The notes under the pieces were generated by a model. That model searched no databases. It had not been told where the DNA came from and worked only from the letters and a program-made list of their open reading frames with translations. Of a DNA stretch of 24,779 nt, positions 4,043-23,033 are shown in pieces (positions within the stretch are counted from its first letter, which is position 1; the number at the start of each line of letters is the position of its first letter). The position numbers and the translations under genes are program-made. Source of the stretch: a virus; IMG/VR virus record IMGVR_UViG_3300017971_000737, positions 1 to 24,779 of that record; one strand, 5' to 3'.

Positions 4043-5680
4043 ATGGCTGAAAACATACGAACAAAAACATCTGACGGTATAAATGTATCAATGGTTCTTG
4101 ATAACTATAATCAGGCCATGTCTCGTAAAAAGGAATCGGACGGGTTGCGTCAAGAGGCTGGTTTGTACGCTTGGCCTTCTGCATGGCGGCAAACTAGAAC
4201 ATCAGAGCAGAGCGAGGGCGAACAGAACAATATACGCCTTTACGACTCTACTGCTTTGATGGCAGCCTATACAATGACATCGGGTATATTCAGTTACTTG
4301 ATGCCAGTTGGTGCTTTCTGGTTCGGGTTTACATCACAAGAGCCAGAGCTTAATGAAGAACCGTCCATGCTAGAATGGATGTCAACCGCCTCTTCTTTAA
4401 CCCATAAAGAGTTATGGAGAAGCAACTTCCAGCGAGAAATGTTTAAGACTATTCGTTCGATGGTCGTGTTTGGAACTGGGGTTATCTCCGTAGAGAAAGA
4501 CGGCGAAGACATAGTATTTAAGTCTCACCATATTGGATATATGGCTTTCGATGACAATGAAAAGGGCGAGGTTGATACTGTTTACCGTCAGATATTCTAC
4601 ACAACTCGCCAAGCGATACAGAAGTTTGGCAAAGAGAACCTAGGTAAATCTGTTCAGAAAGCTATTGAAGCTGGCAAGATGAATGAGAAATTTGAGTTCG
4701 TCCATGTCGCTGCCCCGAATAACGATTTCGACAAAACAAAGATTGGCTCTAAGTCTAAGAAGATAAAGTCTTTATACATCTCTATCAAAGACAAGAAGGT
4801 TGTTAAAGAGTCCGGCTTTGACGATATGCCTTATCTTATTGCTAGATTCTCTGTAGTTCCCGGGGAGATAATGGGTCGTGGCCCAGCTATGGAAATCCTC
4901 CCAGAGATTAAAATGCTTAACCGAATGAAGAGGACATTCATAGAGTCCTCGGAAAAGGCTGTCAACCCACCTCTGATGATGGAAGATGATGGCGTTGTAG
5001 GCCAGCCAGTAACGGGCCCTAATGGTATTATATACATTAGAAACGGCGCACAATTTCCACAAGCTCTGGACACTGGTACGAACGTAGCTCTTAATGCAGA
5101 GATTATAAGAGAGCAACAGGTCATTGTAAAAGAAGGGTTCTTTAATAATAGATTCCAGTCATTAGCAGACCATAGAAATATGACGGCCTTCGAGGCTGGT
5201 ATTAGAAAAGAAGATGACTTAACTATCATATCGCCAGCAGTAACTTCATTGCAGAACGAAACACTTGACCCGTTGCTTGGTAGAGTCCTGAAGCTTCTTA
5301 TACAGATGAAGCGTATTCCACAGCCACCACAGTCGTTTGATTTCGATGTTGCATATCAAGGCAGATTGGCCTTGGCGATGGCGAGTGTTCAGGCTAATGC
5401 TATGGAAGCGACATTGGCTAAATGGGCTCCATACGCACAGATGTCTCCGGTATTTGAGAATGTAGATTGGGACGGTTCGTTCAGGGAATCTTGGTTGGCA
5501 TCAGGCGCTCCTGCCGACAAGTTGGTTGATTTCGAGGAAATGACAGCAAAGAGAGCAGGAGTTGAGCAGATGCAGATGGCTCAGGCACAAGCAGAAATAG
5601 CAGATACAGGAAGTAAGGCATTTAGAAATGTTAATCAGGCTGTCGAGCAAGGCAGCCCAGCGGAGGCATTACTTGGATGA
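4043..5680 (+). CDS. Portal / head-to-tail connecting protein (Bbp1-like)
   Basis: Forms the dodecameric ring at the unique vertex through which DNA enters and leaves and to which the tail binds. Recognisable family segments in order: NNIRLYDSTALMAAY at 62-76, FWFGF at 92-96, LWRSNFQREMFKTIRSM at 124-140 followed by FGTGV, and the TVYRQIFYTTRQAIQKFG block at 179-196. Length (545 aa) is usual for the family of bacteriophage head-to-tail connecting proteins that includes T7 gp8 and BPP-1 Bbp1. The C-terminus is Ala/Gln-rich and helical (AKRAGVEQMQMAQAQAEIA), as in portal barrels. The stop overlaps the next start by 4 bases. Confidence 0.93.
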   Translation: MAENIRTKTSDGINVSMVLDNYNQAMSRKKESDGLRQEAGLYAWPSAWRQTRTSEQSEGEQNNIRLYDSTALMAAYTMTSGIFSYLMPVGAFWFGFTSQEPELNEEPSMLEWMSTASSLTHKELWRSNFQREMFKTIRSMVVFGTGVISVEKDGEDIVFKSHHIGYMAFDDNEKGEVDTVYRQIFYTTRQAIQKFGKENLGKSVQKAIEAGKMNEKFEFVHVAAPNNDFDKTKIGSKSKKIKSLYISIKDKKVVKESGFDDMPYLIARFSVVPGEIMGRGPAMEILPEIKMLNRMKRTFIESSEKAVNPPLMMEDDGVVGQPVTGPNGIIYIRNGAQFPQALDTGTNVALNAEIIREQQVIVKEGFFNNRFQSLADHRNMTAFEAGIRKEDDLTIISPAVTSLQNETLDPLLGRVLKLLIQMKRIPQPPQSFDFDVAYQGRLALAMASVQANAMEATLAKWAPYAQMSPVFENVDWDGSFRESWLASGAPADKLVDFEEMTAKRAGVEQMQMAQAQAEIADTGSKAFRNVNQAVEQGSPAEALLG

Positions 5681-6892: not shown

Positions 6893-7852
6893 ATGGCAAC
6901 TCTTAATCAGAACACAAATTCTATCAGTGGGTATACAGAAGCATTTTACAATTCGTATACTGCTGGATACGAGGCAGTTCTTCAACAGAAGAAGCCTATG
7001 TATCAGGGTTTGCTTCGTGAAGAGCGAATAGAAGGCGAGAACGAGTCCTACGACTTCCTCGGCACTATTGAGCTTGACCAGAAGACGACCCGGTTTGAGG
7101 ATATTCCGATAGAGGATATGACTCATAACCGAAGATGGATTTCACCTGTATGGTATCGAAAAGGTATCTTTGTTGACAAGGAAGATGACATTGCCTTGCA
7201 CACTGACCCAACAAGCGATTATATCCAAGCGCTTGCTAAGGGTGAAATCAGAAAAGAAAATACTGTTATCACTGACGCCTTCTTTGGTAATGTAAGCGGT
7301 GGTAAGCTTCCGGGCGATGATACCTATGTATTGTCAACTTCGAAGTACACAACTGGTGGAGTAGGGAGAACTATCGCTCACGATGTTCAATCTGACTTTA
7401 CTGGCGGTGGCACATCAACTGGTCTTACGATTGAGAAATTGGTTCTTGCTCGCCAAGCACTGATGGAACTTGAGAACGACCCAGATGATATGTTCTACAT
7501 TGCAGTAGCACCTAAGCAGATGTCTGACTTGCTAAGGCAGGCAGAGACTCAGAGCATTGACACTAATATCATTCGCTCTTTAGTTTCTGGTGTTGTAAAT
7601 GAATACATGGGCTTTAGGTTTGTTGTTACCAACAACATCGTTATCGGTTCAAGCAATGACAGCGATAGCGATACAAATGTATTCAAATGTCCTGTATGGA
7701 CAAAAGAAGGAATGTTGTTTGCTAAACATGAGTCACCAATCTTTAACGTAGACTGGTTGCCTCGTAAACAGATTTGGCAAATTTCCGCACGTGTCGGAAT
7801 GAACGCAATCCGTATGGACGAAGATAAAGTGCTTGCACTTGAATGTATCTAA
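6893..7852 (+). CDS. Major capsid protein (HK97-fold, BPP-1 type)
   Basis: The 319-residue shell protein. It begins with a flexible N-arm (NQNTNSISGYTEAFYNSY) and then LQQKKPMYQGLLREERIEG and the conserved EDIPIEDMTHNRRWISP, typical of the BPP-1/podoviral coat family. DDIALHTDPTSDY and a run of short strands follow, and the C-terminal domain ends in GMNAIRMDEDKVLALECI, resembling the ARmDE segment of these coats. It follows the scaffold and has the strongest ribosome binding site in the window (AAGGAG), consistent with high expression. No cleavage site or protease domain is evident. Confidence 0.92.
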   Translation: MATLNQNTNSISGYTEAFYNSYTAGYEAVLQQKKPMYQGLLREERIEGENESYDFLGTIELDQKTTRFEDIPIEDMTHNRRWISPVWYRKGIFVDKEDDIALHTDPTSDYIQALAKGEIRKENTVITDAFFGNVSGGKLPGDDTYVLSTSKYTTGGVGRTIAHDVQSDFTGGGTSTGLTIEKLVLARQALMELENDPDDMFYIAVAPKQMSDLLRQAETQSIDTNIIRSLVSGVVNEYMGFRFVVTNNIVIGSSNDSDSDTNVFKCPVWTKEGMLFAKHESPIFNVDWLPRKQIWQISARVGMNAIRMDEDKVLALECI

Positions 7853-9821: not shown

Positions 9822-10196
9822 ATGGAATCGACTACAGACAAAAGAAACGCAATAAACACTAAGCCGATATGGAGAAGGAAGTTAGCTCAATTTACTTGGG
9901 CAGCAGCGGTTTCAACTGGAGTCTCTAAAGACTTGGAGATAAACGGTAAAGTTAAGGCCATTGTTGGTGTTGCTAATGACTCAACAAATGCTATTACTTA
10001 TACTACAACCATAAAAGATGTAGATGGATATACACTGTATACCAAGGCTGATTGGGCAGAGGCGGCAACGGAAGTTGTTGTGTTCGACGCTGATACTATG
10101 GTATACATACCAGATGGCTCTACTGTAACAATCACTCCTTCAGGAGTTCCGGGCGCATCAACTGGTACATTTGACTTAACTCTTATAGGTGAGTAA
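9822..10196 (+). CDS. Hypothetical beta-rich tail-module protein, 124 aa
   Basis: After a basic N-terminal segment (NTKPIWRRKLAQFTW) the protein is strand-rich with Thr/Val alternation (AITYTTTIKDVDGYTLY and SGVPGASTGTFDLTLIGE), similar in style to the preceding gene product and possibly forming a pair with it. GAGG lies upstream of the start, which directly follows the previous stop. The end overlaps the nozzle start as TAATG, so translation of the nozzle is probably coupled to it. No family recognised; virion location inferred from context and composition. Confidence 0.75.
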   Translation: MESTTDKRNAINTKPIWRRKLAQFTWAAAVSTGVSKDLEINGKVKAIVGVANDSTNAITYTTTIKDVDGYTLYTKADWAEAATEVVVFDADTMVYIPDGSTVTITPSGVPGASTGTFDLTLIGE

Positions 10197-12409
10197 TGCC
10201 AATAAAGCAAATCAAAAACTCGTTTAACGCAGGTGAGCTTAGTGAATATATGGCTGGGCGAACTGACATTAACAAGTATCACAATGGATGTTCCAAACTG
10301 GTTAACGCAACCGTATTGCCTCACGGTGGTATAGTTAAGCGTTCTGGCACTGAGTATATAGGGCAATCGCCAAATAAGTGCAAGCTGTTCCCATTCGAGT
10401 TTTCTGTTGACGATGCCCTTGTTCTTGAGTTTAGCAATCTTCTAATCAGATTCTACAAAGACGGTGACAGGGTCTATGAGACTGCTAAGACCATAACTGG
10501 AATAACAAAAGCTGACCCAGCGGTTGTAACGATAGTTAGTCACGGATACTCGACAGGTGATTGGGTGTTTTTATCTGTAACTGGAATGTCTGAGGCTGAT
10601 GAAAAGATATACGAAATTACAAAGCTAACCAATGACACTTTCTCGCTACAAGATACTTTTGGCAACGACATTGACAGCACTGCATTTGGGACATTTACAT
10701 CTGGCACAGCATCTAAAGTTTATCAGATAGTCTCACCATATACATCAGAGGAAGCGTTTGAGATACACGTAACTCAGTCTGCTGACGTCATGTATATAGC
10801 ACACGAAGACCACCCTCCGCAGAAGTTGTCTCGTAACGGGGATACTGATTGGACGATAGAAGACGTTCCGTTTGTTGGTGGCCCATTCCTTACTGAGAAT
10901 CTAACAGATACGTATTTATTGGGATTTGCAAGGACAGGCGGTACGGCTAGGGATGGATACTATTTCCCTCCGGGAGCAACTGGCACATTAACCGCCACTG
11001 GTGGTCATGCACCATTCTTGGGGACTGCAAATGACGTGGGAACTTTATGGCAATTGAATCACACAAGGCCAGATAACTCTGACTCTAAGGCTGGGACTGG
11101 AAACTGGACTCAATCTGGAGCAGCTAACCCTAGTGCAGAGATAAGGGTTAAAGGTGACTTTAATTTAGATGCAGCTAACTTTGACGACAATATGACGGTT
11201 CTAGTGGAACGCAAGTCTGGTGCTGGTGAATGGCAAGAGTACAGGACGTTTACTGCCGCAGTAGCATATTCTGCCACAGAGACAGAAGATGATACTTTCT
11301 ATAGGGTAACTGTAACTGGTGCTAAGGCGGCATCAGAGGTGTCTTTCAGTGCGAAGAATCAGATAAATAACGGTATAGTGGTTGTTACATCTGCTGTTAG
11401 TACGACTGTAGCAAACGTAACAGTTATTGACCAAGTACTAAGCGATAATGCAACTGATAGCGCAGTGACTACTTCTATGTGGGCCGAGGGAGCATGGGGT
11501 GAGTTTAGGGGTTATCCAAGAACTGTTACATTTTTTGAAGATAGATTATGGTGGGCATCTAGTACAAATAATCCAGATACGCTCTGGTCTTCTAAGTCTA
11601 GCCAATATGAGGATATGTCATTTACAGCAGAGGGGCTAGATGATGAAGCTATAACATTCCCAATAAATGATAATGAAGTATCGCAAGTACAATGGATGCA
11701 GGCTAGACAGGTAATGGCTGTTGGTGCGGCAAACAAAGAGTATAGGTTCGGGGCAAGTGACCCAGATAAGCCAGTCACTCCATCTGATAGAAAGTCTACA
11801 CCGCAGACATCTTTCGGTAGTAATGAGATACAGCCAGTAATATTAAACAATGCAATATTCTTTTTCCAGAGACAGGGGCGGAAGCTAAGGGCTATGCAAT
11901 TCGATGCTATTAGTGAGAACTTCCAAGCTGATGACGCTACATTATTATCCAATACAATACTTGAGTCAGCCCCAACTTGCATGGCAGTACAGAGAGTCCC
12001 CGACTCGATTATATGGATTACTCGTTCTGATGGCACGTTGCTATCGTTTACATATGAGCCTGATGAAGAGGTATCTGGTTGGTCTAGGCATATTACTGGT
12101 GCGATGACAGCTAATATTATAGGAGGAACTGTTCAACCAACTGAAGCATTTGAGAGTGTAGCAGTTATACATGGCAGTATCGAGGATGAGGTATGGGTTT
12201 CTGTCAAGAGAGTAGTCAATGGAAACACCGTAAGATATATAGAAAAGTTTTCAACAAGAATTTTTGACCAATTGGATGAGGCTAACATGCTAGACTCTGC
12301 ATTAACGGAAGTATCGGGCAGTATTTCTGGAGAGTTGATTCTCGCTAGCGATACAGTGCGATACGGCTCTGGTGTTTATGGCTCATCGTTATACGGAGGT
12401 ACTACATAA
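10196..12409 (+). CDS. Nozzle / tail tubular protein B-like, N-terminal and central part
   Basis: The N-terminus NSFNAGELSEYMAGRTDINK and PHGGIVKRSGTEYIG (residues 8-56) are the hallmark of podoviral nozzle (tail tubular B or stabilisation) proteins that close the tail tube. Residues 108-155 contain an E1-FCCH-like segment (VSHGYSTGDWVFLS). A large beta-propeller-type middle follows, including the GYPRTVTFFEDRLWWA block near 437-452, usual for this family, and VWVSVKRVVNGNTVRYIEKF near the end. The protein then stops at YGSGVYGSSLYGG. The domain that normally follows (GLxHLEGxxV, LPYTMK, GTxQxRxKRI) is missing here and appears in the gene at 13164. 737 residues. Confidence 0.9.
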   Translation: MPIKQIKNSFNAGELSEYMAGRTDINKYHNGCSKLVNATVLPHGGIVKRSGTEYIGQSPNKCKLFPFEFSVDDALVLEFSNLLIRFYKDGDRVYETAKTITGITKADPAVVTIVSHGYSTGDWVFLSVTGMSEADEKIYEITKLTNDTFSLQDTFGNDIDSTAFGTFTSGTASKVYQIVSPYTSEEAFEIHVTQSADVMYIAHEDHPPQKLSRNGDTDWTIEDVPFVGGPFLTENLTDTYLLGFARTGGTARDGYYFPPGATGTLTATGGHAPFLGTANDVGTLWQLNHTRPDNSDSKAGTGNWTQSGAANPSAEIRVKGDFNLDAANFDDNMTVLVERKSGAGEWQEYRTFTAAVAYSATETEDDTFYRVTVTGAKAASEVSFSAKNQINNGIVVVTSAVSTTVANVTVIDQVLSDNATDSAVTTSMWAEGAWGEFRGYPRTVTFFEDRLWWASSTNNPDTLWSSKSSQYEDMSFTAEGLDDEAITFPINDNEVSQVQWMQARQVMAVGAANKEYRFGASDPDKPVTPSDRKSTPQTSFGSNEIQPVILNNAIFFFQRQGRKLRAMQFDAISENFQADDATLLSNTILESAPTCMAVQRVPDSIIWITRSDGTLLSFTYEPDEEVSGWSRHITGAMTANIIGGTVQPTEAFESVAVIHGSIEDEVWVSVKRVVNGNTVRYIEKFSTRIFDQLDEANMLDSALTEVSGSISGELILASDTVRYGSGVYGSSLYGGTT

Positions 12410-12873
12410 TGGCATTACCAACAGTAGGTGGTTCTGATGGCACTTGGGGCACTGAGCTTAATACTCATCTAAACGTCTCAATAGCTTCAGATGGAAAAAT
12501 AAAAGATGGCGCAGTAATGGAATCAAGCGATGCCCCAATAGATGATGCAGGTGTTGTGAACAAAAAATATGTTGATGACAAAGATTCATCTACCAATTTA
12601 GTTAAGGCGTATGGGCAAGTTGAGGCAAATGGAACGCTATCTGGTGGGCTTAATGTATCAACATCAAGGGATTCACTAGGTGTATATACACTTACTTTTG
12701 ACACAGATTTTGCAAATAAAAACTACGCATGTGTCGTAACAGTTGGCGAGACCCAAGGGCGTATGGCTATGTTTACTGATAAACAAGTTGGTTATTGTAA
12801 GGTTACAATAAGAACTGATGCTAACGCACTTGCTGACCACGGGTTTGATTTTATAGCAGTTGGGGTGCAATAG
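12409..12873 (+). CDS. Short tail-fibre-like protein, 154 aa
   Basis: The N-terminus LPTVGGSDGTWGTELNTHL is a common anchoring motif of phage fibres and minor tail proteins. APIDDAGVVNKKYVDDK at about 42-58 is the familiar fibre segment preceding a trimeric coiled coil or shaft. The C-terminal part, with YTLTFDTDFANKNYACVV and DHGFDFIAVGVQ, resembles the compact beta knob that ends many fibres. At 154 aa it would be a miniature fibre. It starts in a TAATG overlap with the nozzle gene behind GGAGG (12393-12397), so it is expressed with it. It sits between the two halves of the apparently split nozzle. Confidence 0.78.
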   Translation: MALPTVGGSDGTWGTELNTHLNVSIASDGKIKDGAVMESSDAPIDDAGVVNKKYVDDKDSSTNLVKAYGQVEANGTLSGGLNVSTSRDSLGVYTLTFDTDFANKNYACVVTVGETQGRMAMFTDKQVGYCKVTIRTDANALADHGFDFIAVGVQ

Positions 12874-12936
12874 CACTAGCGATGTTTACTCGCTCGTAAA
12901 ATGACACTAGAACATTAAAACAGGAAAAGGTTAAAT

Positions 12937-13164
12937 ATGAAGAAAATAGGTATGTCAGAAGGAAAAACTATAGTCTTGTTAAGCGACGTAGAGTTTACTG
13001 GACTCACAGGCAATCCAACTGGAGACTATTCAGATGGTTCAACGATAAGCCTTTCTGGATTGAAAGCCAAGTTAGATTTAGTCGATAACAATAAGCCGAA
13101 GTTGACTGGCTTGAAAACTCAATGTCAAGATGTAATTGACCAGATAACATCAGTGGGGCTTTAA
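12937..13164 (+). CDS. Hypothetical protein, 75 aa
   Basis: Begins MKKIGMSEGKTIVLLSDV and ends in a helix (LKTQCQDVIDQITSVGL); the middle is Gly/Thr/Ser-rich. AGGAAAAGG upstream provides the ribosome binding site. The gap of 63 bases before it holds a small AGCGA/TCGCT hairpin (12878-12894) without a T run. The stop forms a TAATG junction with the next gene. No family recognised. It and the fibre-like gene upstream together separate the nozzle halves; it could be a fibre attachment or assembly factor, but nothing in the sequence shows this. Confidence 0.68.
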   Translation: MKKIGMSEGKTIVLLSDVEFTGLTGNPTGDYSDGSTISLSGLKAKLDLVDNNKPKLTGLKTQCQDVIDQITSVGL

Positions 13165-13823
13165 TGTCGGATTTAATCTGTTTAGTTTCTAATCATGGTT
13201 ACTCAAATGGCGACCAAGTATTTGTGTCTTGGCTAAGTGACAGATACTTTGTAAGGCAAAAGACCGACAACGCCTTTAAGATTTCGTCCACAAACGACGA
13301 CTTAAATTTAGTTCAGTATACAGTAAATGTAACTGACGGGTTTGTCAGGTTTGATGACGGAACAGGTACATCTACGCTAACTGGACTAGAGCACTTAGAG
13401 GGAAGATTAGTTACAGTAACATCTGGCGGTGAGCTGATTGCTTCAGAAACCGTTACTGGTGGAGAAATAACTCTCCCAATCGAATTAACAACATTTCAAG
13501 TTGGCTTACCATACACTATGAAGGTAAGGACTATGAGGCTGTCTATACCTGAAAGCGGAACCGTTCAGTCTAGGATTAAGCGCATAAACGAAAACGTAAC
13601 TAGATATATTCGCACCAAAGGCGGTAGGTCAGGTCAGGAATATAATGGCAAAGAATATCTCGTTGATATGGACACTACGTTTTCAAGCCAATCTCAAGAC
13701 GACACAAAGTTAACTAGTGGTGGTTTCACGGAAGATGCTTATACAACTATCACTTCAGAGACTCCATTCCCGTGTACTATTTTAGCAACAATCATTTCCG
13801 TAGAGATAGAAGAGAGAAGATGA
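13164..13823 (+). CDS. Detached C-terminal domain of the nozzle / tail tubular protein B
   Basis: Residues 76-140 hold LEHLEGRLVTVTSGGEL, a strand-rich stretch with EITLPI, VGLPYTMKVRTMRL and GTVQSRIKRINENV. In full-length nozzle proteins of BPP-1-like and related phages this series (GLxHLEGxxVxVxxDG, vGLPY, GTxQGRxKRI) forms the C-terminal domain. The first 40 residues (VSNHGYSNGDQVFVS) repeat the FCCH-like segment seen in the large nozzle gene. It is an intact gene with its own start, coupled by TAATG to the gene before it, so it reads as a stable two-gene arrangement rather than decay. It probably assembles with the 737-residue part. Confidence 0.8.
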   Translation: MSDLICLVSNHGYSNGDQVFVSWLSDRYFVRQKTDNAFKISSTNDDLNLVQYTVNVTDGFVRFDDGTGTSTLTGLEHLEGRLVTVTSGGELIASETVTGGEITLPIELTTFQVGLPYTMKVRTMRLSIPESGTVQSRIKRINENVTRYIRTKGGRSGQEYNGKEYLVDMDTTFSSQSQDDTKLTSGGFTEDAYTTITSETPFPCTILATIISVEIEERR

Positions 13824-14797: not shown

Positions 14798-16237
14798 ATG
14801 GGAAGAATAGAAAGAGTATCATCTACAGCACCAGTTAGAGTTAAGCAGGCTCAGTTAATTGACCCCGGAGCATTCCGTTTTGACACGTCAGAGGCTCAGG
14901 CAATCGGTCAAATAGGTGGAGTTATATCTGAACTTGGTAAGCGTAAGAGGGATATGCAAGATAGAATAGGAGTTTCTGATGCTAACGCCATAATGGAGCA
15001 ATCACAACTTGCCATGGCAGAAGAGCTTATAAATACTCCATTCGAAAAGAGGCAAGAGGTTAGGCTGAAGCATACGCAGAAAGCTATGTCTGATATATCG
15101 CAGCTTAATTTATCTAATGAAACATCAGCTATCGTTGGCAATAAAGCGGGAATTTGGAGCCAAAATATAGGCGACCTTGGAGACATAGAAGATACATTAG
15201 AAATATCGAAAGCCGCTGACGTTGCGGTTTCTACTGATTTTCAAAACGCGCTAAGCAAGTTTGATGATGGTTCGCCAGAAGTTATTGAGGCTGAGGCGGC
15301 ATTTGACAAGCAATTCGCTAACAAGCCACCGGAAGAGGCAAAGGCTATAAAGGATAGCGTAGTAGGCCAGACACTAATATTCAAGGCAACTAACAACGCA
15401 GCCGACAACCCGACTAAAGAAAATATGCAAGAAGCTAGAGATGTAATAGATAAGTATTCAACAGACGAGAAGGATAGGTTTTTTAACTTGCAGAGGCTAA
15501 GGTCTGAATCATCTAAAAAGACGCAGAATAAAAACGCCACATTTAAGGCTAATATGAACCTGCAATCAGAGACTATGGGAAAGGCGTTCTCATCTGGCGC
15601 GTTATTCCAAGGTGAGACTGTACCAGAGCTCGATGTAACTAAATCGCAACTTACTGAGCGATACACTAATAAGACACTCGATGTTAGCGACAATAAGACA
15701 TTTAAGTTCCTTGAAGACCAGATAAATCTAGGCAAATCATTCGAGCAGGATGAGTTAACAAGTGCATACGCAACTGGAATGTCTTCATCTGAATATGAGG
15801 CTATATCAAAATTAAATGAAGAGAATTCTAAATTAACACTATCACAAAAAGATAATCTTAAAAACTTTGATACGTATATTAACTCCAGATATTCTAAGAT
15901 ATCGCAATCAGTCTCCCCTCTGCTTGGCGCCCTTACTGCTGGGCCAGTGTTGACTGCTATTGGAAGTGCGAAAAGGAAACTTGGCAATGAAGTTAGGAGT
16001 ATGGTCAGGGACGGTAAAACTGACGAAGAAATATATAATGTCATTGAAAGTTCGTTTGTGTCAGACACGGATAGATTCTATAGAAATGACTCATTTTTTG
16101 ACTTCGGTATACCAGAATCTATAAAAGGTATAGACGATCGTGAAGAGAGGTACGAGTCTGTAATGCAACTGCTGAAGACAGGTGAGAAAAAAGACCTAAA
16201 CATGCTCGGTGATATACTGGAGGTTTGGTACGAATAA
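14798..16237 (+). CDS. Internal virion protein (T7 gp15 position), 479 aa
   Basis: A long, mostly helical, charged protein with coiled-coil-like repeats (ELGKRKRDMQDRIGVSDANA and later NKNATFKANMNLQSETMGKA) and no recognised enzymatic domain. By order it corresponds to T7 gp15, which with gp16 builds the periplasmic channel through which DNA is delivered. Direct sequence similarity to gp15 is not visible, so the name rests on position, size and helix content. ATG 14798 is preferred over TTG 14789, which lies in the preceding gene; AAAAGGA is upstream. The stop overlaps the next start (TAATG). Confidence 0.7.
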   Translation: MGRIERVSSTAPVRVKQAQLIDPGAFRFDTSEAQAIGQIGGVISELGKRKRDMQDRIGVSDANAIMEQSQLAMAEELINTPFEKRQEVRLKHTQKAMSDISQLNLSNETSAIVGNKAGIWSQNIGDLGDIEDTLEISKAADVAVSTDFQNALSKFDDGSPEVIEAEAAFDKQFANKPPEEAKAIKDSVVGQTLIFKATNNAADNPTKENMQEARDVIDKYSTDEKDRFFNLQRLRSESSKKTQNKNATFKANMNLQSETMGKAFSSGALFQGETVPELDVTKSQLTERYTNKTLDVSDNKTFKFLEDQINLGKSFEQDELTSAYATGMSSSEYEAISKLNEENSKLTLSQKDNLKNFDTYINSRYSKISQSVSPLLGALTAGPVLTAIGSAKRKLGNEVRSMVRDGKTDEEIYNVIESSFVSDTDRFYRNDSFFDFGIPESIKGIDDREERYESVMQLLKTGEKKDLNMLGDILEVWYE

Positions 16238-19200
16238 TGGCATTAACGCTACAACAAAAAAAGCTCCGTGAGCAGGTACAGAGAAGCAAGTTGATTGAGA
16301 CAAACAGTGTTATTAGGTCACAATTGTCCTCTGGTGTACCAATAGAGACTATAGCACAGCAGGTTAGCCCCGGAAGCGGATTAGACCCAATGGATGTATT
16401 GGGGGCTATGTCTTTGGCTGAAACACACCAAATGACGCCAAATGCTGCTATTAACGTATTGCCATCTTTAATGAAACAAACTTACGGCGACCAATTTAAC
16501 AAATCTGATGTTGTTAGGTCTTATTTTACTGAGTCACAAGCTTTTAAGTTGCCAACTGCAACAAAAGATGTTACAGGATTGAAGGAGGATGTAGCAACTG
16601 AAGAGAAGCAAATTCTCGACTTGAAGAAATCTAAGCAGGCTGGTATACCGCACAGAGAGTTAAGAAGCACACTGTTCTCGATGCCGGGCGGCCTTGGTCA
16701 AGCTAATACTATAACAAGAGGGTTAGCAATTGCTAGGGCCGAGGCAAGCTGGTACAACGAAGACCCAAGCAAGAAGAAATTCCTAGAAGGTATAATGAAG
16801 GCCGAAACAGAAGAAGAAAAAGAAAGTCTTCGGTTTAATAGGACTAGGGATATGCTTGATAATGAGGTGGCTAGAGTACAGGGGGTTCGTGACTGGGAAA
16901 GAAGGCAAGAAGCACTTGCTAGTGATACACCCGGGGTATGGGAATCAAAGAAAAATGCTTGGTCTTCCGGCAGTGCTGATGTTTCTGCCGCAGCCCTAGA
17001 TGCTTCAAGCGATGTATTGCGAACCATTGGAACTGTTTTTCAATCTGATAGCTTCTTAAACACATCTGGTAACTTAGCTAAATGGGCGAGGGCGTACCAT
17101 AAAGCATCCCAAGAGCCAGATTTGGCAATAGAGTCGGTTAACGCCTTTGATGATACAGTAAATTCATTTCTAAGAAACACTCCATATGTCGGGACTTCTG
17201 TAGCCGTTGCAATAGCATCGCCAGATAAACTTACTCCGGCTGCGCTGTTTTTTACATCAGCAGCAATGGAGGGATCAGGTATACGTCAGCAGTCATTGGA
17301 TAATGGCATATCAGAAGAATCTGCGAGACTTAGAGGGTGGGTTGGTGGCTCTGTCAATGGCCTAATTGAAGCTTGGGGTGGCGGTGCGGCCAAGTATGAC
17401 CCAAGGAAACTAGGTAAAAGACTCGCTAGTTTCCCAAAGAAGATAACCAAAAATGCACTAACGGAGATATTTAAAGAAGAAGTTCCGCAAGAAATAGTGT
17501 CATCAGTCTTTTCTGGCGATGTACCAATGACGGACAGTCAAGAGATTGACTGGGACGAGGTAACTAGCAGGTTTATGTTACTTGCTAGAGACACTGCGTT
17601 TACATCTGCCATGTTCACATCTGCGTCATCTTCTGTAAGCGAGATAGCCAAATGGGACAAAAGAAGGCTTGCTAATAGGGATACAGTACAGGCGATGAAT
17701 GATGCCATAAACTTTACGATAGCCCAGCAAGAAGAAACTGTTGTACAGGAGCCAAGCGAGGTAGCTAAAGAAGAGGTGGTGGAAGTCGACAAAGAGGTTG
17801 ATGATATTGTCGTAGAGTCTGAAATTGAAACAGCAAATGTCGAAGAGCTTGTCAGCAACACAGCCTCTTACGGCGTTGTTAAACAGAAAGATGGTAAGTA
17901 TGCTGTCTTAGATTGGGAAACCCAACAAGAGATAGATGTTGATTTGTCGAAAAAGAAAGCTAATAGAATAGCTACTGGGCTAAACTCAAACGAACTTGAG
18001 ATAGCATCATCTAGGCCAAGGGATGTACTTCCAACTGCACAGGATATAGAAACACTTAATCATGGTCAACTTCTAAGCATAGTATTCAAAAAGGTGTCGC
18101 AACAGTCGCAAAAGATTGTTAAGGAAACCTCAAAAGCCATAGCTGCTATTGGCAAAGATTTATCTATATACCAAAAAACGGCCCTGAGAGGGCTTGATAT
18201 TAGCGAGTCACAGAGAAATTCATTATTGAATAAAGTAGCAACTGCAACTACTGATAAGGAAAGAACTCAGGCAGTTCAGGCCATTGAAGGTGTTAAAGAG
18301 ATAGCCAAGAAGAATAAGGCCACTGCTAGATTCAAGAAACTAAGGCAGGCAGTTAATCGAGCGTCGAAGAAGAAGGTGTCTGATGGCGGTATACACCACA
18401 AGGCTCATAAGATTATAGGTGATTTACTTAAGAACTATACTACACTATCGCCAAAAATACTAAACTCTGTCAAGAGGACAAAAGATTATCTCGATGGTAT
18501 CAGAAATGATGTTGCCAGTAACACAAGCGAGAAGTACGCAGAAGGATTAATACCAAGGACTATATCGAATAAGTTTAGCGAGTTAGCCTCTACTAAAATA
18601 TCAGATATGGATTCGTCACAAATAGAGGACTTGAACAACGAGATACAGAGGTTTCTTAAGCTTAGTCAGTCATATGGGAAATTAGCAACTAGCCAGAAGG
18701 TTAAGAAGCTAAAGAATTTCCTTAACAACTCTACGGCGAATGTCAAAATCAAGAAGGATATAAAGACTCGTCGCAAGTTCTCGCCTAAGCGTGGCATGGT
18801 AAAGAAGATTTCTGATGCACTTGTTGGGATTAAGAACGACGATATATACACAATAGCAACTAGGATATGGGGTAAGTTTGACCCGATAACATCAATCGTT
18901 ATGGAGGGCAGGCGCAACCAACTTGGTTTGACGCTAAAGTACACAGATATGCTGAGGGGTGGTATTGAGGCTGGACAAATAAGCACAGATATGCTCAAGC
19001 AGTGGTCGCCAACAATGCACCAGATTCCAGTAAGCCAGAGGGTTAAGGACATATTCGGTTCTGGCACTCATTTGTACAATGTAACTGTTGCTGGTAGTCC
19101 ACAGCAGTTTACTATGGCTGAACTGATGTCCTTTGCCATGCACACAAGAAACTCTTACAACTTAGGTCAGGCAGTCAAAAATGGCATTGCCACACGAGAA

Positions 19201-20811
19201 GGCGAGATGGGCAAATTAACTGAACAGGAGTTCGTTGAGATGTCCAGTATAGTCGAGGCTGACCCTGCCGCCAAATCGTTCATAGACTTCCTTGAATCGT
19301 TCTATATAGAAATGGGTCAAGACATAAACAAGACTAGCCGAGAGGTAGATGGCATTGATATAGCCACAATCGACAACTATTTCCATGTTGAATACCTGCC
19401 TGAAGGCGGTGTTGTTGGGACTGAGTATGTCAGGGACGCCCTAATAGATGAAGATGGCAGGCTTAAGAGTAGGACATCAAGCCGAAGACCTGTTATGGTG
19501 CGAGACATATTCGAGGTTATAGCTGAAGACATGAGGGCTATATCTCAATTTGCTGGAACTACAGAGGCTGTTAGGCAACTTAGGTCTTTAGTTAACTACG
19601 CACCGTTTAGGAATAAGCTGAGGAGCGTGGGCCAAGAAATTGTGCTTGAGGAGTTAGATTCCAGAGTACGAAACTTCCAAAGAGAACGACAAGCCCCTGC
19701 TGGTGATATAGAAAGAGCCGTATCTAAAATAGACTCTGGAATGGCGCAGGCTGTACTAACTAATCCTATTATTTGGGCATTACAGCCAACATCTGCTGTG
19801 CTGTACGGAACAGAAGCGTCATTTAAATATACCAAGGCGATTGCGACACGGGTTTCAACTGAAGAGATTGCGCTGTTCAACAAAAACTGGACATTGTTTA
19901 GAACTAGAGAAGAGGGCATAGGCGCGTCAAAATCCATAGCGAGTCCGTCCACTATAAAGAAAATATTCACCGGGACTGGAAACATCAGAGACAAAGCTCT
20001 ATCTGGTATGCACAAGGGTGATATAAGCGGTGTTTCTAGGGCTGGTAAAATTACAATGGCAGAGATGTCAGATAAGCAGCTAGAAGGGTCAAGTTTAGAA
20101 TGGTGGAAAAACTATGGAGTTGAGCCATCTACACTAGAGTTTAACAGCCAAGAATACTGGAACGCTTTCAATGATAGAGCAGATTACCTAGTTACCAGAA
20201 CTCAACCAATGTTCTTCGATGAGAATAAATCAAGTTTCACTGGCTCTGACAATACATATACTAGAAGCCTTACAAGGTTCCGTAGCTTCACTGACCAAAT
20301 TGGCAGGATTATAAGGCGTCAGAAAGCTATGGTTGAGACTGGGGACATAGGAAAAGCGGAGGCTGCTAAAAACATAGGCATCGCATACTCGCTTATATCA
20401 GTTATTTCTGTAAGCATGAGAGCGCTGTTTGACATGATGCTCGGAAGAAAAAAGGAAGATGGCGAGTTCTTAACAGACCTAATAACATCCCCTCTCAGCC
20501 TTGTTCCATTTGTTGGGTATCCAGCAAAGCAAATAGCCAGCGCCTTGTTAGGGCAAGAGGTTACAGCGCCAGAACTATCGGCAATGCCATTAATAATGAT
20601 GGAGAGCATTTTTAAACATTCCCTTGATGTTGCCAAGGGGGTTAGATTTTCACTTGATGACGAGTTAATAAAGAGTGGCCCGAACAGGGGCAAATGGAAA
20701 AGTGAGCAGTTCTTTAAGGACGGGATAAAGGGTGTAACTTCAGATTATCTAACTCTACATGGAGTGCCACTTAGAACAGTGCAGAAAATAGAATGGTGGA
20801 AAGATAAATGA
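16237..20811 (+). CDS. Giant internal virion / DNA-ejection protein (T7 gp16 position), 1524 aa
   Basis: The largest protein here and the last of the ejection set. It is largely helical. Residues about 315-345 are Ala-rich and hydrophobic, 505-545 are very acidic (EEVVEVDKEVDDIVVESEIE), 650-800 are Lys-rich and helical, and about 1381-1400 (SLISVISVSMRALF) could insert in a membrane. The C-terminal third (YFHVEYLPEGG, ANPII-like TNPIIWALQPTSAV, LTLHGVPLRTVQKIEWW) resembles large polyvalent or ejection proteins of podoviruses. No lysozyme or transglycosylase catalytic motif is visible at the N-terminus, unlike T7 gp16. Start ATG 16237 has GGAGG at 16219-16223, 13 bases away. Confidence 0.8.
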   Translation: MALTLQQKKLREQVQRSKLIETNSVIRSQLSSGVPIETIAQQVSPGSGLDPMDVLGAMSLAETHQMTPNAAINVLPSLMKQTYGDQFNKSDVVRSYFTESQAFKLPTATKDVTGLKEDVATEEKQILDLKKSKQAGIPHRELRSTLFSMPGGLGQANTITRGLAIARAEASWYNEDPSKKKFLEGIMKAETEEEKESLRFNRTRDMLDNEVARVQGVRDWERRQEALASDTPGVWESKKNAWSSGSADVSAAALDASSDVLRTIGTVFQSDSFLNTSGNLAKWARAYHKASQEPDLAIESVNAFDDTVNSFLRNTPYVGTSVAVAIASPDKLTPAALFFTSAAMEGSGIRQQSLDNGISEESARLRGWVGGSVNGLIEAWGGGAAKYDPRKLGKRLASFPKKITKNALTEIFKEEVPQEIVSSVFSGDVPMTDSQEIDWDEVTSRFMLLARDTAFTSAMFTSASSSVSEIAKWDKRRLANRDTVQAMNDAINFTIAQQEETVVQEPSEVAKEEVVEVDKEVDDIVVESEIETANVEELVSNTASYGVVKQKDGKYAVLDWETQQEIDVDLSKKKANRIATGLNSNELEIASSRPRDVLPTAQDIETLNHGQLLSIVFKKVSQQSQKIVKETSKAIAAIGKDLSIYQKTALRGLDISESQRNSLLNKVATATTDKERTQAVQAIEGVKEIAKKNKATARFKKLRQAVNRASKKKVSDGGIHHKAHKIIGDLLKNYTTLSPKILNSVKRTKDYLDGIRNDVASNTSEKYAEGLIPRTISNKFSELASTKISDMDSSQIEDLNNEIQRFLKLSQSYGKLATSQKVKKLKNFLNNSTANVKIKKDIKTRRKFSPKRGMVKKISDALVGIKNDDIYTIATRIWGKFDPITSIVMEGRRNQLGLTLKYTDMLRGGIEAGQISTDMLKQWSPTMHQIPVSQRVKDIFGSGTHLYNVTVAGSPQQFTMAELMSFAMHTRNSYNLGQAVKNGIATREGEMGKLTEQEFVEMSSIVEADPAAKSFIDFLESFYIEMGQDINKTSREVDGIDIATIDNYFHVEYLPEGGVVGTEYVRDALIDEDGRLKSRTSSRRPVMVRDIFEVIAEDMRAISQFAGTTEAVRQLRSLVNYAPFRNKLRSVGQEIVLEELDSRVRNFQRERQAPAGDIERAVSKIDSGMAQAVLTNPIIWALQPTSAVLYGTEASFKYTKAIATRVSTEEIALFNKNWTLFRTREEGIGASKSIASPSTIKKIFTGTGNIRDKALSGMHKGDISGVSRAGKITMAEMSDKQLEGSSLEWWKNYGVEPSTLEFNSQEYWNAFNDRADYLVTRTQPMFFDENKSSFTGSDNTYTRSLTRFRSFTDQIGRIIRRQKAMVETGDIGKAEAAKNIGIAYSLISVISVSMRALFDMMLGRKKEDGEFLTDLITSPLSLVPFVGYPAKQIASALLGQEVTAPELSAMPLIMMESIFKHSLDVAKGVRFSLDDELIKSGPNRGKWKSEQFFKDGIKGVTSDYLTLHGVPLRTVQKIEWWKDK

Positions 20812-23033
20812 GAAACTCACGCCTCTGCAATTACGACTTTATCGCAGGAGAAATAAACCCACTCCTCGACCACGGCCTACTCCTTGGCCTTGCCGATGAC
20901 GACCATCTTCAATACCTACCAGTAGACGGTTCACGCTCACCCACTGCCGACATTGACTGGGACAACTACGGCATAACCACACTCCACTACGTAGATTGGA
21001 GCTTAGAGAACGGACTTCCTCCAGCCGAGGGTCGTATGATATGGAACGACGACGAAGGCACGCTAAATCTCGGAATGAAGGGCGGTACTGTTAATCAGCA
21101 GATGGGCCTTGAGTTATTCCTTCCTCGCTCTAGGAATGATGAGTCAGTACAAATAAACAATGGTCAACTAGTGTATGTTTTTAGCGGGACAGGGGCAGTG
21201 CCTACGGTCAAACTCGCTTCTGCGTCTGTTCATTCGCAGGCTAAGGCTACGCTTGCAATGGCAACGGAAGATGTCTCGGCAGGCCAATTAGGTTATTTTA
21301 CGTCAGATGGACTTGTCAGAGATGTTGATACTGGTAGCTACTCAGCCGGAGATGAACTGTTCCTTGTAGAAAACGGCAATTATTCAAATACACCCCCTAC
21401 CCAACCAGATTCAATAGTGTGCGTTGGTGTAGTGATACGAGCACACGCAACAGAGGGAATAATACACGTAAGGCTGCATCCACATCCGAATCTTGATGAG
21501 TTGAGCGACTGCTTAATATCATCCATTGCAGACAACGACCTATTGGCATGGGACTCTGGCGCTGGTGTATGGAAGAACCAGACACCAACTGAGGCTGGCT
21601 TTGACAACCTGTATGTAAGACGTGACGGCACAACTCCTCTCACTGGTAATTGGGACGCAGGTAACTTCGAGATTGCGGCAGGTGCATTAGTCATAGATAA
21701 TATCACCCTTGATGGAGACACGATAAGCTACACTGATGTTACTGGTGGCCTTAGAATTAACTTCGACCCAACAGGAACAGGTGTCAGTGATTTTGAGATT
21801 GCTGGTGGGGCACATACGTTCTTTGGTGTAGATGCAAATTCTGGCGATGTTGATATTTCCAGTTACAATGCCGACATAACCTTAAATGGTGATATAATAT
21901 TTGGCACAGACGCAGGTATTACACTTACCCTCGACTCGCTTGGTGACGCTTATTTTGAGAATGATGTTGAGATTACAGGCAATGTAGGTATTGGGATGTC
22001 GCCAGTAACAAATCAATCTCTGACTGTGTTAGGTGGTTCTGAATATGGACTTACAATACATCAAGGCGCTGACAATAGGGGATTTCGTGTTTATGGGTAC
22101 GATGATAGGTCAGCAGAGTGGGTCAACTGCTTTATAGCATCGTCTGGCAATGCTATATGGGGGTCTAGTAAAAACTTTGATGTCGCAAGCGGTGGCTTTG
22201 TCACCTTTGGAACGCCTAATGGAGCTTATGATATAATCTTTGATGGGGGGAGAACATTTAAGTGGAGAGATAGGAGAGGTTCGTATGCTACAAGGATGTC
22301 ACTTGATGCGGCTACTGGGACTCTCCAAACCTATGGGGCGGTAAATTTCACACAAACAGACGGAGCAGAGCGTATTGACTCTGATGCTGACGGAACTCTA
22401 GACTTGTATGCTGGAACAAGCATAGACTTACACCAAGCAACTACAATAGGCGATGGAGGGACTACAGATTACTCTGAGTTTGAAACTGATGGGACTTATG
22501 TTGCTCATGGAGCTGCTACGGTATGGGAGGACATACAAAGCTCTCTAATAGGAAGAAGGCTTGCTTCAGTCTCTGGTGGCGTGGCATACAACTACGCAAA
22601 CAATACAGTAACATTTGACCCGAACGGTGACGAGACTAATGTAAATGACTCCGTTCAGTTCAATCTGCAATTGAGCCATAAAACAAAAGCTGATAGCGAT
22701 TTCCATTTGCACGTTCATTTTGAGCAACCAAGTGATAGCAATTATGAGTTCACTGCAAGATACAGAATACAGAACAATGGGTCGCTAAAGACAACAGCAT
22801 GGACAACTATATCAGGTGACTATACAAACAATGGGGTGTACACGTGGGGGACGGGAACACTTAATCAGATTATTAGTTTACCGGCAATAGACCTAACTGG
22901 AGCAGGGTTATCTGACGTGATTCAGATACAGTTTGCTAGGACTGATTCCGTATCTGGTGACATAGAAGTAACATTTGTTGACGCTCATTATGAAATAGAT
23001 ACAATCGGCTCAAGAACAGAGTTTAGTAAATAG
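20808..23033 (+). CDS. Tail fibre / receptor-binding protein, 741 aa
   Basis: The N-terminal LLLGLADDDHLQYLPVDGSR and repeats of TPLTGNWDAGNFEIAAG-type are typical of phage tail fibres. The middle is a chain of short beta repeats (ADGTLDLYAGTSIDLHQAT) as in fibre shafts. The C-terminal 180 residues form a separate globular beta domain (DSDFHLHVHFEQPS, then VIQIQFARTDSVSGDIEVTF) like the terminal domains that often bind receptors. No intramolecular chaperone or peptidase is evident. It overlaps the previous stop by 4 bases. The first about 190 bases use C-ending codons and have opposite G/C bias from the rest of the gene, suggesting a swapped N-terminal module. Confidence 0.87.
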   Translation: MRNSRLCNYDFIAGEINPLLDHGLLLGLADDDHLQYLPVDGSRSPTADIDWDNYGITTLHYVDWSLENGLPPAEGRMIWNDDEGTLNLGMKGGTVNQQMGLELFLPRSRNDESVQINNGQLVYVFSGTGAVPTVKLASASVHSQAKATLAMATEDVSAGQLGYFTSDGLVRDVDTGSYSAGDELFLVENGNYSNTPPTQPDSIVCVGVVIRAHATEGIIHVRLHPHPNLDELSDCLISSIADNDLLAWDSGAGVWKNQTPTEAGFDNLYVRRDGTTPLTGNWDAGNFEIAAGALVIDNITLDGDTISYTDVTGGLRINFDPTGTGVSDFEIAGGAHTFFGVDANSGDVDISSYNADITLNGDIIFGTDAGITLTLDSLGDAYFENDVEITGNVGIGMSPVTNQSLTVLGGSEYGLTIHQGADNRGFRVYGYDDRSAEWVNCFIASSGNAIWGSSKNFDVASGGFVTFGTPNGAYDIIFDGGRTFKWRDRRGSYATRMSLDAATGTLQTYGAVNFTQTDGAERIDSDADGTLDLYAGTSIDLHQATTIGDGGTTDYSEFETDGTYVAHGAATVWEDIQSSLIGRRLASVSGGVAYNYANNTVTFDPNGDETNVNDSVQFNLQLSHKTKADSDFHLHVHFEQPSDSNYEFTARYRIQNNGSLKTTAWTTISGDYTNNGVYTWGTGTLNQIISLPAIDLTGAGLSDVIQIQFARTDSVSGDIEVTFVDAHYEIDTIGSRTEFSK

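Follow-up and report, generated by a model that had tools for sequence, protein, structure and literature searches.

The window analysed here is the whole 24,779-nucleotide stretch of the IMG/VR virus record IMGVR_UViG_3300017971_000737. Its forward strand carries four genes between positions 10196 and 13823, which are listed below together with the segments of their products considered in the text.

10196..12409, + strand: N-chain of the nozzle, 737 aa; predicted N-terminal platform strands and beta-propeller
10517..10657, + strand: FCCH-like insert of the N-chain, residues 108-154; Pfam PF16190, E 9e-6, sub-threshold
12338..12400, + strand: C-terminal tail of the N-chain, ILASDTVRYGSGVYGSSLYGG; Y723/Y728/Y733 triad, proposed fibre-dock peptide
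12409..12873, + strand: mini-fibre gene, 154 aa; putative receptor-binding protein, sits in the nozzle break
12409..12504, + strand: N-terminal anchor of the fibre, residues 1-32; constant across split loci
12937..13164, + strand: accessory protein, 75 aa; optional in split loci
13164..13823, + strand: C-chain of the nozzle, 219 aa; matches to phrog_376 and 8ck1, AF2/Foldseek
13164..13358, + strand: FCCH-like head of the C-chain, residues 1-65; proposed partner module on the fibre side
13365..13553, + strand: fibre-dock-like domain of the C-chain, residues 68-130; GLEHLEG, short helix and six strands (AF2 strand order compared with T7 gp12)
13575..13814, + strand: C-terminal platform domain of the C-chain, residues 138-217; six strands (AF2 strand order)

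A first-pass annotation of this DNA had described a nozzle protein split in two, with a fibre-like gene (12409) and a 75-residue gene (12937) between the halves and TAATG couplings everywhere except at 12937. The four open reading frames were recovered at the same coordinates, and the TAATG junctions were confirmed at 10196, 12409 and 13164; the start at 12937 has none, and is preceded by a 63-nt gap with the purine-rich AGGAAAAGG upstream. Both intervening reading frames are present and the product of the first matches the tail fiber family phrog_3484 (E 9e-13). Between the nozzle halves, stops close all three frames, so that no fused product can be read. Elsewhere in the window, the products encoded at 16231-20811 (1526 aa) and 20808-23033 (741 aa) have neither a PHROG match nor a Pfam match above the cut-off.

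The two nozzle chains and the position of the break

In profile searches against the nozzle family phrog_376 (tail protein, 712 positions), the N-chain covers positions 2-551 (E 2e-142) and the C-chain positions 537-711 (E 8e-27), together 2-711, and no part of the nozzle core is therefore missing. The 737-residue protein does not align full length to the family but ends, as had been noticed in the annotation, before the C-terminal nozzle domain; this domain is supplied by the separate intact gene at 13164, whose 219-residue product is the missing nozzle end and not a member of an unrelated family. Among solved structures, the best sequence match of both chains is the Carin-1 tail nozzle 8ck1 (N-chain, E 3e-52, reaching 8ck1 residue 594; C-chain, residues 668-742, E 8e-10). 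Models were built by AF2 with family alignments (pLDDT 83 for the N-chain and 91 for the C-chain) and compared by Foldseek. The N-chain model matches 8ck1 with an E-value of 1.4e-37 and its top seven matches are podophage nozzle or tail complexes, as are all the top 12 PDB matches of the C-chain (Carin-1, LME-1, E1004, Kp9, HRP29, T7, P-SCSP1u and A4). The TM-scores of the models against these nozzles are moderate (0.3-0.6) because a partial protein is set against remote relatives.

Both the family profile and the fold thus assign the two chains to the podophage nozzles of the phrog_376 / T7 gp12 type. Since the single polypeptide is replaced by the products of two genes that enclose a fibre gene, we consider this nozzle as a variant of that type. 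Considering the complementary coverage, the nozzle structure matches and the 13 further split contigs described below, it is nearly certain that the tail nozzle is, at the level of genes, encoded as two separate chains, as the annotation had suggested. No two-chain nozzle was found in the open-access literature. Nozzles serve as the gate of short phage tails, and all the solved structures cited here consist of a single chain; a two-chain form that is conserved reveals where the nozzle fold tolerates a cut.

In T7 gp12, the propeller is followed by a fibre dock made of a small helix and six strands, which joins it to the platform; the N-terminus supplies three of the nine platform strands (PMC6702177). 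Past its head, the C-chain is modelled as a short helix with six strands (70-122) and then a further six strands (138-216). From this domain order and these strand counts, rather than from a superposition, we take the break to fall after the propeller and ahead of the fibre-dock/platform part, with a platform barrel common to both chains. The likeness to T7 gp12 concerns the fold (C-chain Foldseek E 3e-4) and the order propeller, fibre dock, platform, whereas T7 has one chain with the fibre dock fused in line. The single-chain nozzles of phrog_376 (phage MW202898, BcepC6B, phiV10 and Carin-1 8ck1) are homologous along the entire length of both window chains, but they are encoded by one gene, have no fibre within and lack the dock-like tail. 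The neighbourhood in MW202898 also resembles that of the window, with a GNAT-annotated gene and an internal virion gene downstream.

Occurrence of the split among related phages

The survey of relatives identified the same split in 13 further distinct IMG/VR contigs (L006, L007, L012, L013, L014, L017, L094 with its near-identical L095, L096, L099, L103, L187, L200 and L207), giving 14 split loci with the window, the divergent L017, L187 and L200 among them; this recurrence exceeds chance. Two contigs are truncated, L099 ending inside the C-chain and L207 inside the fibre. A one-piece nozzle, with both parts in one reading frame, was found in 163 fetched loci, these counts depending on how loci were fetched and not being a frequency. 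A scan of a collection of bacterial genomes with the C-chain classified 0 of 80 loci as split. We conclude that a group of uncultured short-tailed phages encodes its nozzle in two chains, with the gene of the receptor-binding fibre in the gap between them.

In the nozzle-core tree, the split loci fall in two groups, of nine and three, a topology that does not separate a single origin of the split from two. The fused nozzles of L008 and L009 nest inside the larger group, adjoining the window, and are best read as re-fusions. They have no tail, head or fibre, and carry laminin-G-like domains instead at N-chain position ~93-176. This nozzle insert (L008:2905-4407 and its counterpart in L009) is of ~490 residues, has domains of the concanavalin type and occupies the place of the FCCH insert.

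Roughly half of the split loci encode the 75-residue protein. Homologues lie between the fibre and the C-chain in L006, L007, L017, L094/L095 and L099, and none occurs in L012, L013, L014, L096, L103, L187 and L200. Searches of PHROG/Pfam-type profiles returned no family match for it, and a role in assembly would be a guess.

The fibre gene and the modules flanking the break

Each of the 14 split loci has a fibre or tailspike gene at this position, and the tips vary in fold. In the window, residues 66-149 of the mini-fibre match the Syn5 tail fibre; elsewhere the tips are Gp53-like_C (several members), Phage_depo_C (one) or a pectate-lyase beta-helix (L207), and the near-identical nozzle cores of L096 and L207 are accompanied by different tips. 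The anchor is conserved and the tip variable, with a mean identity of 44% for the anchor against 19% for the rest of the fibre. An HMM of the anchor detects 15 of 15 fibres, and in the comparison that preceded the WGT scan its family was absent from the other loci. Because a constant anchor is combined with exchanged, unrelated tips, a receptor-binding protein is the best interpretation of the mini-fibre. Modular receptor-binding proteins of phages likewise join a conserved anchor to tips of several folds, but here the gene is nested inside the nozzle gene and the partner ends travel along with it.

The last ~21 residues of the N-chain form a tail in which Y, F or C recurs three times at even spacing. 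All 14 split nozzles carry this tail, as does L191, described below, and none of the other loci compared has it. Among 12 split loci, both flanking modules are better conserved than their surroundings: mean pairwise identity is 66% for the tail (715-735) versus 48% for the nozzle core, and 55% for the head (1-45) versus 42% for the C domain. The members of the triad are five residues apart (Y723, Y728, Y733) and are mostly replaced jointly, by FFF or CCC; L017 and L187 each lack one member, where they have Ala, and L014 has a mixed triad (C, Y, Y). In the single-chain AF2 model, residues 691-737 of the N-chain, including the tail, have pLDDT <50 and no predicted structure.

The annotation had also pointed to an FCCH-like HGYSxGD segment in both proteins. 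Indeed, the two segments align mutually (30%, E 0.014), and the N-chain insert 108-154 scores 26.1 bits against E1_FCCH PF16190, below the curated cut-off of 29.5; the C-chain head has no match to this Pfam family. Weak FCCH-like segments similar to the head also occur in fused relatives, at the N-chain insert and in the loop before GLxHLEG.

Probe scans with these modules retrieve only the present arrangement (anchor 8/8, head 12/12 and tail 8/8 loci). Among 50,697 records of cultured phages, no match was obtained for the tail, the WNT-type anchor, the head or the 75-residue protein. The type of anchor follows that of the triad: W[GD][TS] anchors accompany Y/F triads in 5 of 5 split loci, and of the nine split loci with Cys triads eight have a WNT anchor and one has WAT. 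All independent changes agree, with n = 2-3 only. The tail triad and the anchor offer a sequence signature for locating fibre docks in uncultured phages.

Anchors of the WGT type are also present in numerous phages whose nozzle is not split, and this widespread distribution rules them out as a specific marker of the split. In those phages, with near-copies removed, WGT-anchored fibres often follow proteins with Trp-rich C-termini (at least 2 Trp in the last 38 residues, 63% versus 16% of controls; Trp in the last 12 residues, Fisher p 0.003), which supports, but does not prove, a pairing of anchor and dock. In L220-L284, a protein with C-terminal Trp repeats (DTDTWTDxSED, PAIWTDAA) directly precedes the WGT-anchored fibre in many phages. 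In L216 (2989-3495) and L217 (2989-3468), a nozzle gene lies directly downstream of a WGT-anchored fibre gene.

Proposed fibre docking at the break and alternative explanations

The best explanation of the locus as a whole, which we hold with good confidence, is a two-chain nozzle whose break works as a fibre attachment site. The N-chain would contribute the N-terminal platform strands and the propeller, and the C-chain a fibre-dock-like jelly roll and the remainder of the platform barrel; the two would together rebuild a single nozzle subunit, its barrel being completed in trans, and, judging from the fold, six such pairs would make the nozzle. The break would lie on the outer surface, after the propeller and before the fibre dock, and would hold the fibre: the last ~21 residues of the N-chain may be a dock peptide that receives the N-terminal anchors of a single trimeric fibre, each of the three evenly spaced Y/F/C meeting one fibre chain, with the FCCH-like head of the C-chain beside the peptide. 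Tail, fibre gene and head could then form one exchangeable unit in which the tips are swapped and the anchor, tail and head kept constant.

That the fibre attaches at the nozzle break is likely, the contacts, the trimer and the stoichiometry being inferred. The possibility had been raised in the first-pass annotation and is favoured by the conserved dock-like tail and the head that flank the fibre gene, by the free-standing trio of L191 and by the position of the fibre docks of T7 and SU10; the tail motif and a role for the head are additions to it. In the SU10 nozzle, tryptophans 839, 847 and 857 of a dock loop each contact one chain of the trimeric short fibre (PMC9509320). As in SU10 gp17, whose loop belongs to blade 1 where the propeller closes, three spaced hydrophobic residues, seen here as a triad in the sequence, would be available to a trimeric fibre at a similar position. 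In SU10, however, the loop is internal to one chain and its Trp are spaced by 8 and 10, versus 5 and 5 here. No homology of the tail or of either chain to SU10 gp17 was detected by hhalign (probability 0.2-0.3% per chain); the SU10 dock loop therefore serves as an analogy.

The best argument for regarding the tail, the fibre and the head as a single functional unit comes from L191, an unrelated phage with a different terminase and portal, the latter weakly of SU10 type. No nozzle core was found on its 11.9-kb contig, which carries the three modules as free-standing genes:

4828-4932: tail gene, 34 aa; little beyond the tail
4944-5330: anchored fibre
5356-5625: head gene, 89 aa; free-standing

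All three genes have a start and a stop of their own, an argument against a chimeric assembly. We lean slightly towards the view that the tail peptide, the anchored fibre and the FCCH-like head are a fibre-docking cassette that moves between phages, splitting the nozzle gene and fusing to both its ends in one case and standing as three free genes in the other. A fibre gene with matching ends suggests how short-tailed phages may swap receptor-binding proteins as a unit.

The nozzle could also be two-chained with the fibre gene a mere neighbour, the conserved ends joining the two chains and the fibre sitting elsewhere, for instance on the adaptor. The ends of split proteins frequently interact, the T7 fibre is held between adaptor and nozzle (PMC6702177), and the tail, unstructured alone, could pair with the C-chain. 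We judge this unlikely: fused relatives have neither tail nor anchor, so the tail is unnecessary for closing the nozzle fold, and in L191 tail and head accompany a fibre where no nozzle gene is visible.

In another account, a mobile endonuclease made a functionless break, to which the fibre and the conserved ends were added later. The gap of L096 does hold an endonuclease-VII-like gene (7093-7554), and an HNH-like gene (776-1453) lies directly upstream of the nozzle in L207. Such a gene is present in only 1 of the 14 gaps, however, and tail and head are better conserved than the nozzle core, making this account very improbable; an endonuclease may explain the origin of the break rather than its present function.

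Finally, the chance that one nozzle gene appears as two through sequencing, frameshift or assembly error or through gene decay is negligible: the halves are separated by two intact genes and the same ends are kept in 14 contigs, each with its own starts and stops, so that conservation, with intact split genes in the 13 other contigs, rules out a sequencing error as the cause. Lesions that such an error could produce do occur among the relatives. The otherwise intact fused nozzle gene of L009 has an in-frame TGA at 4750-4752 (error, readthrough or recoding), and in L057 an overlapping frame change at 6947-7044, between the same two domains (propeller and C domain) and without a fibre cassette, is either a frameshift or an error.
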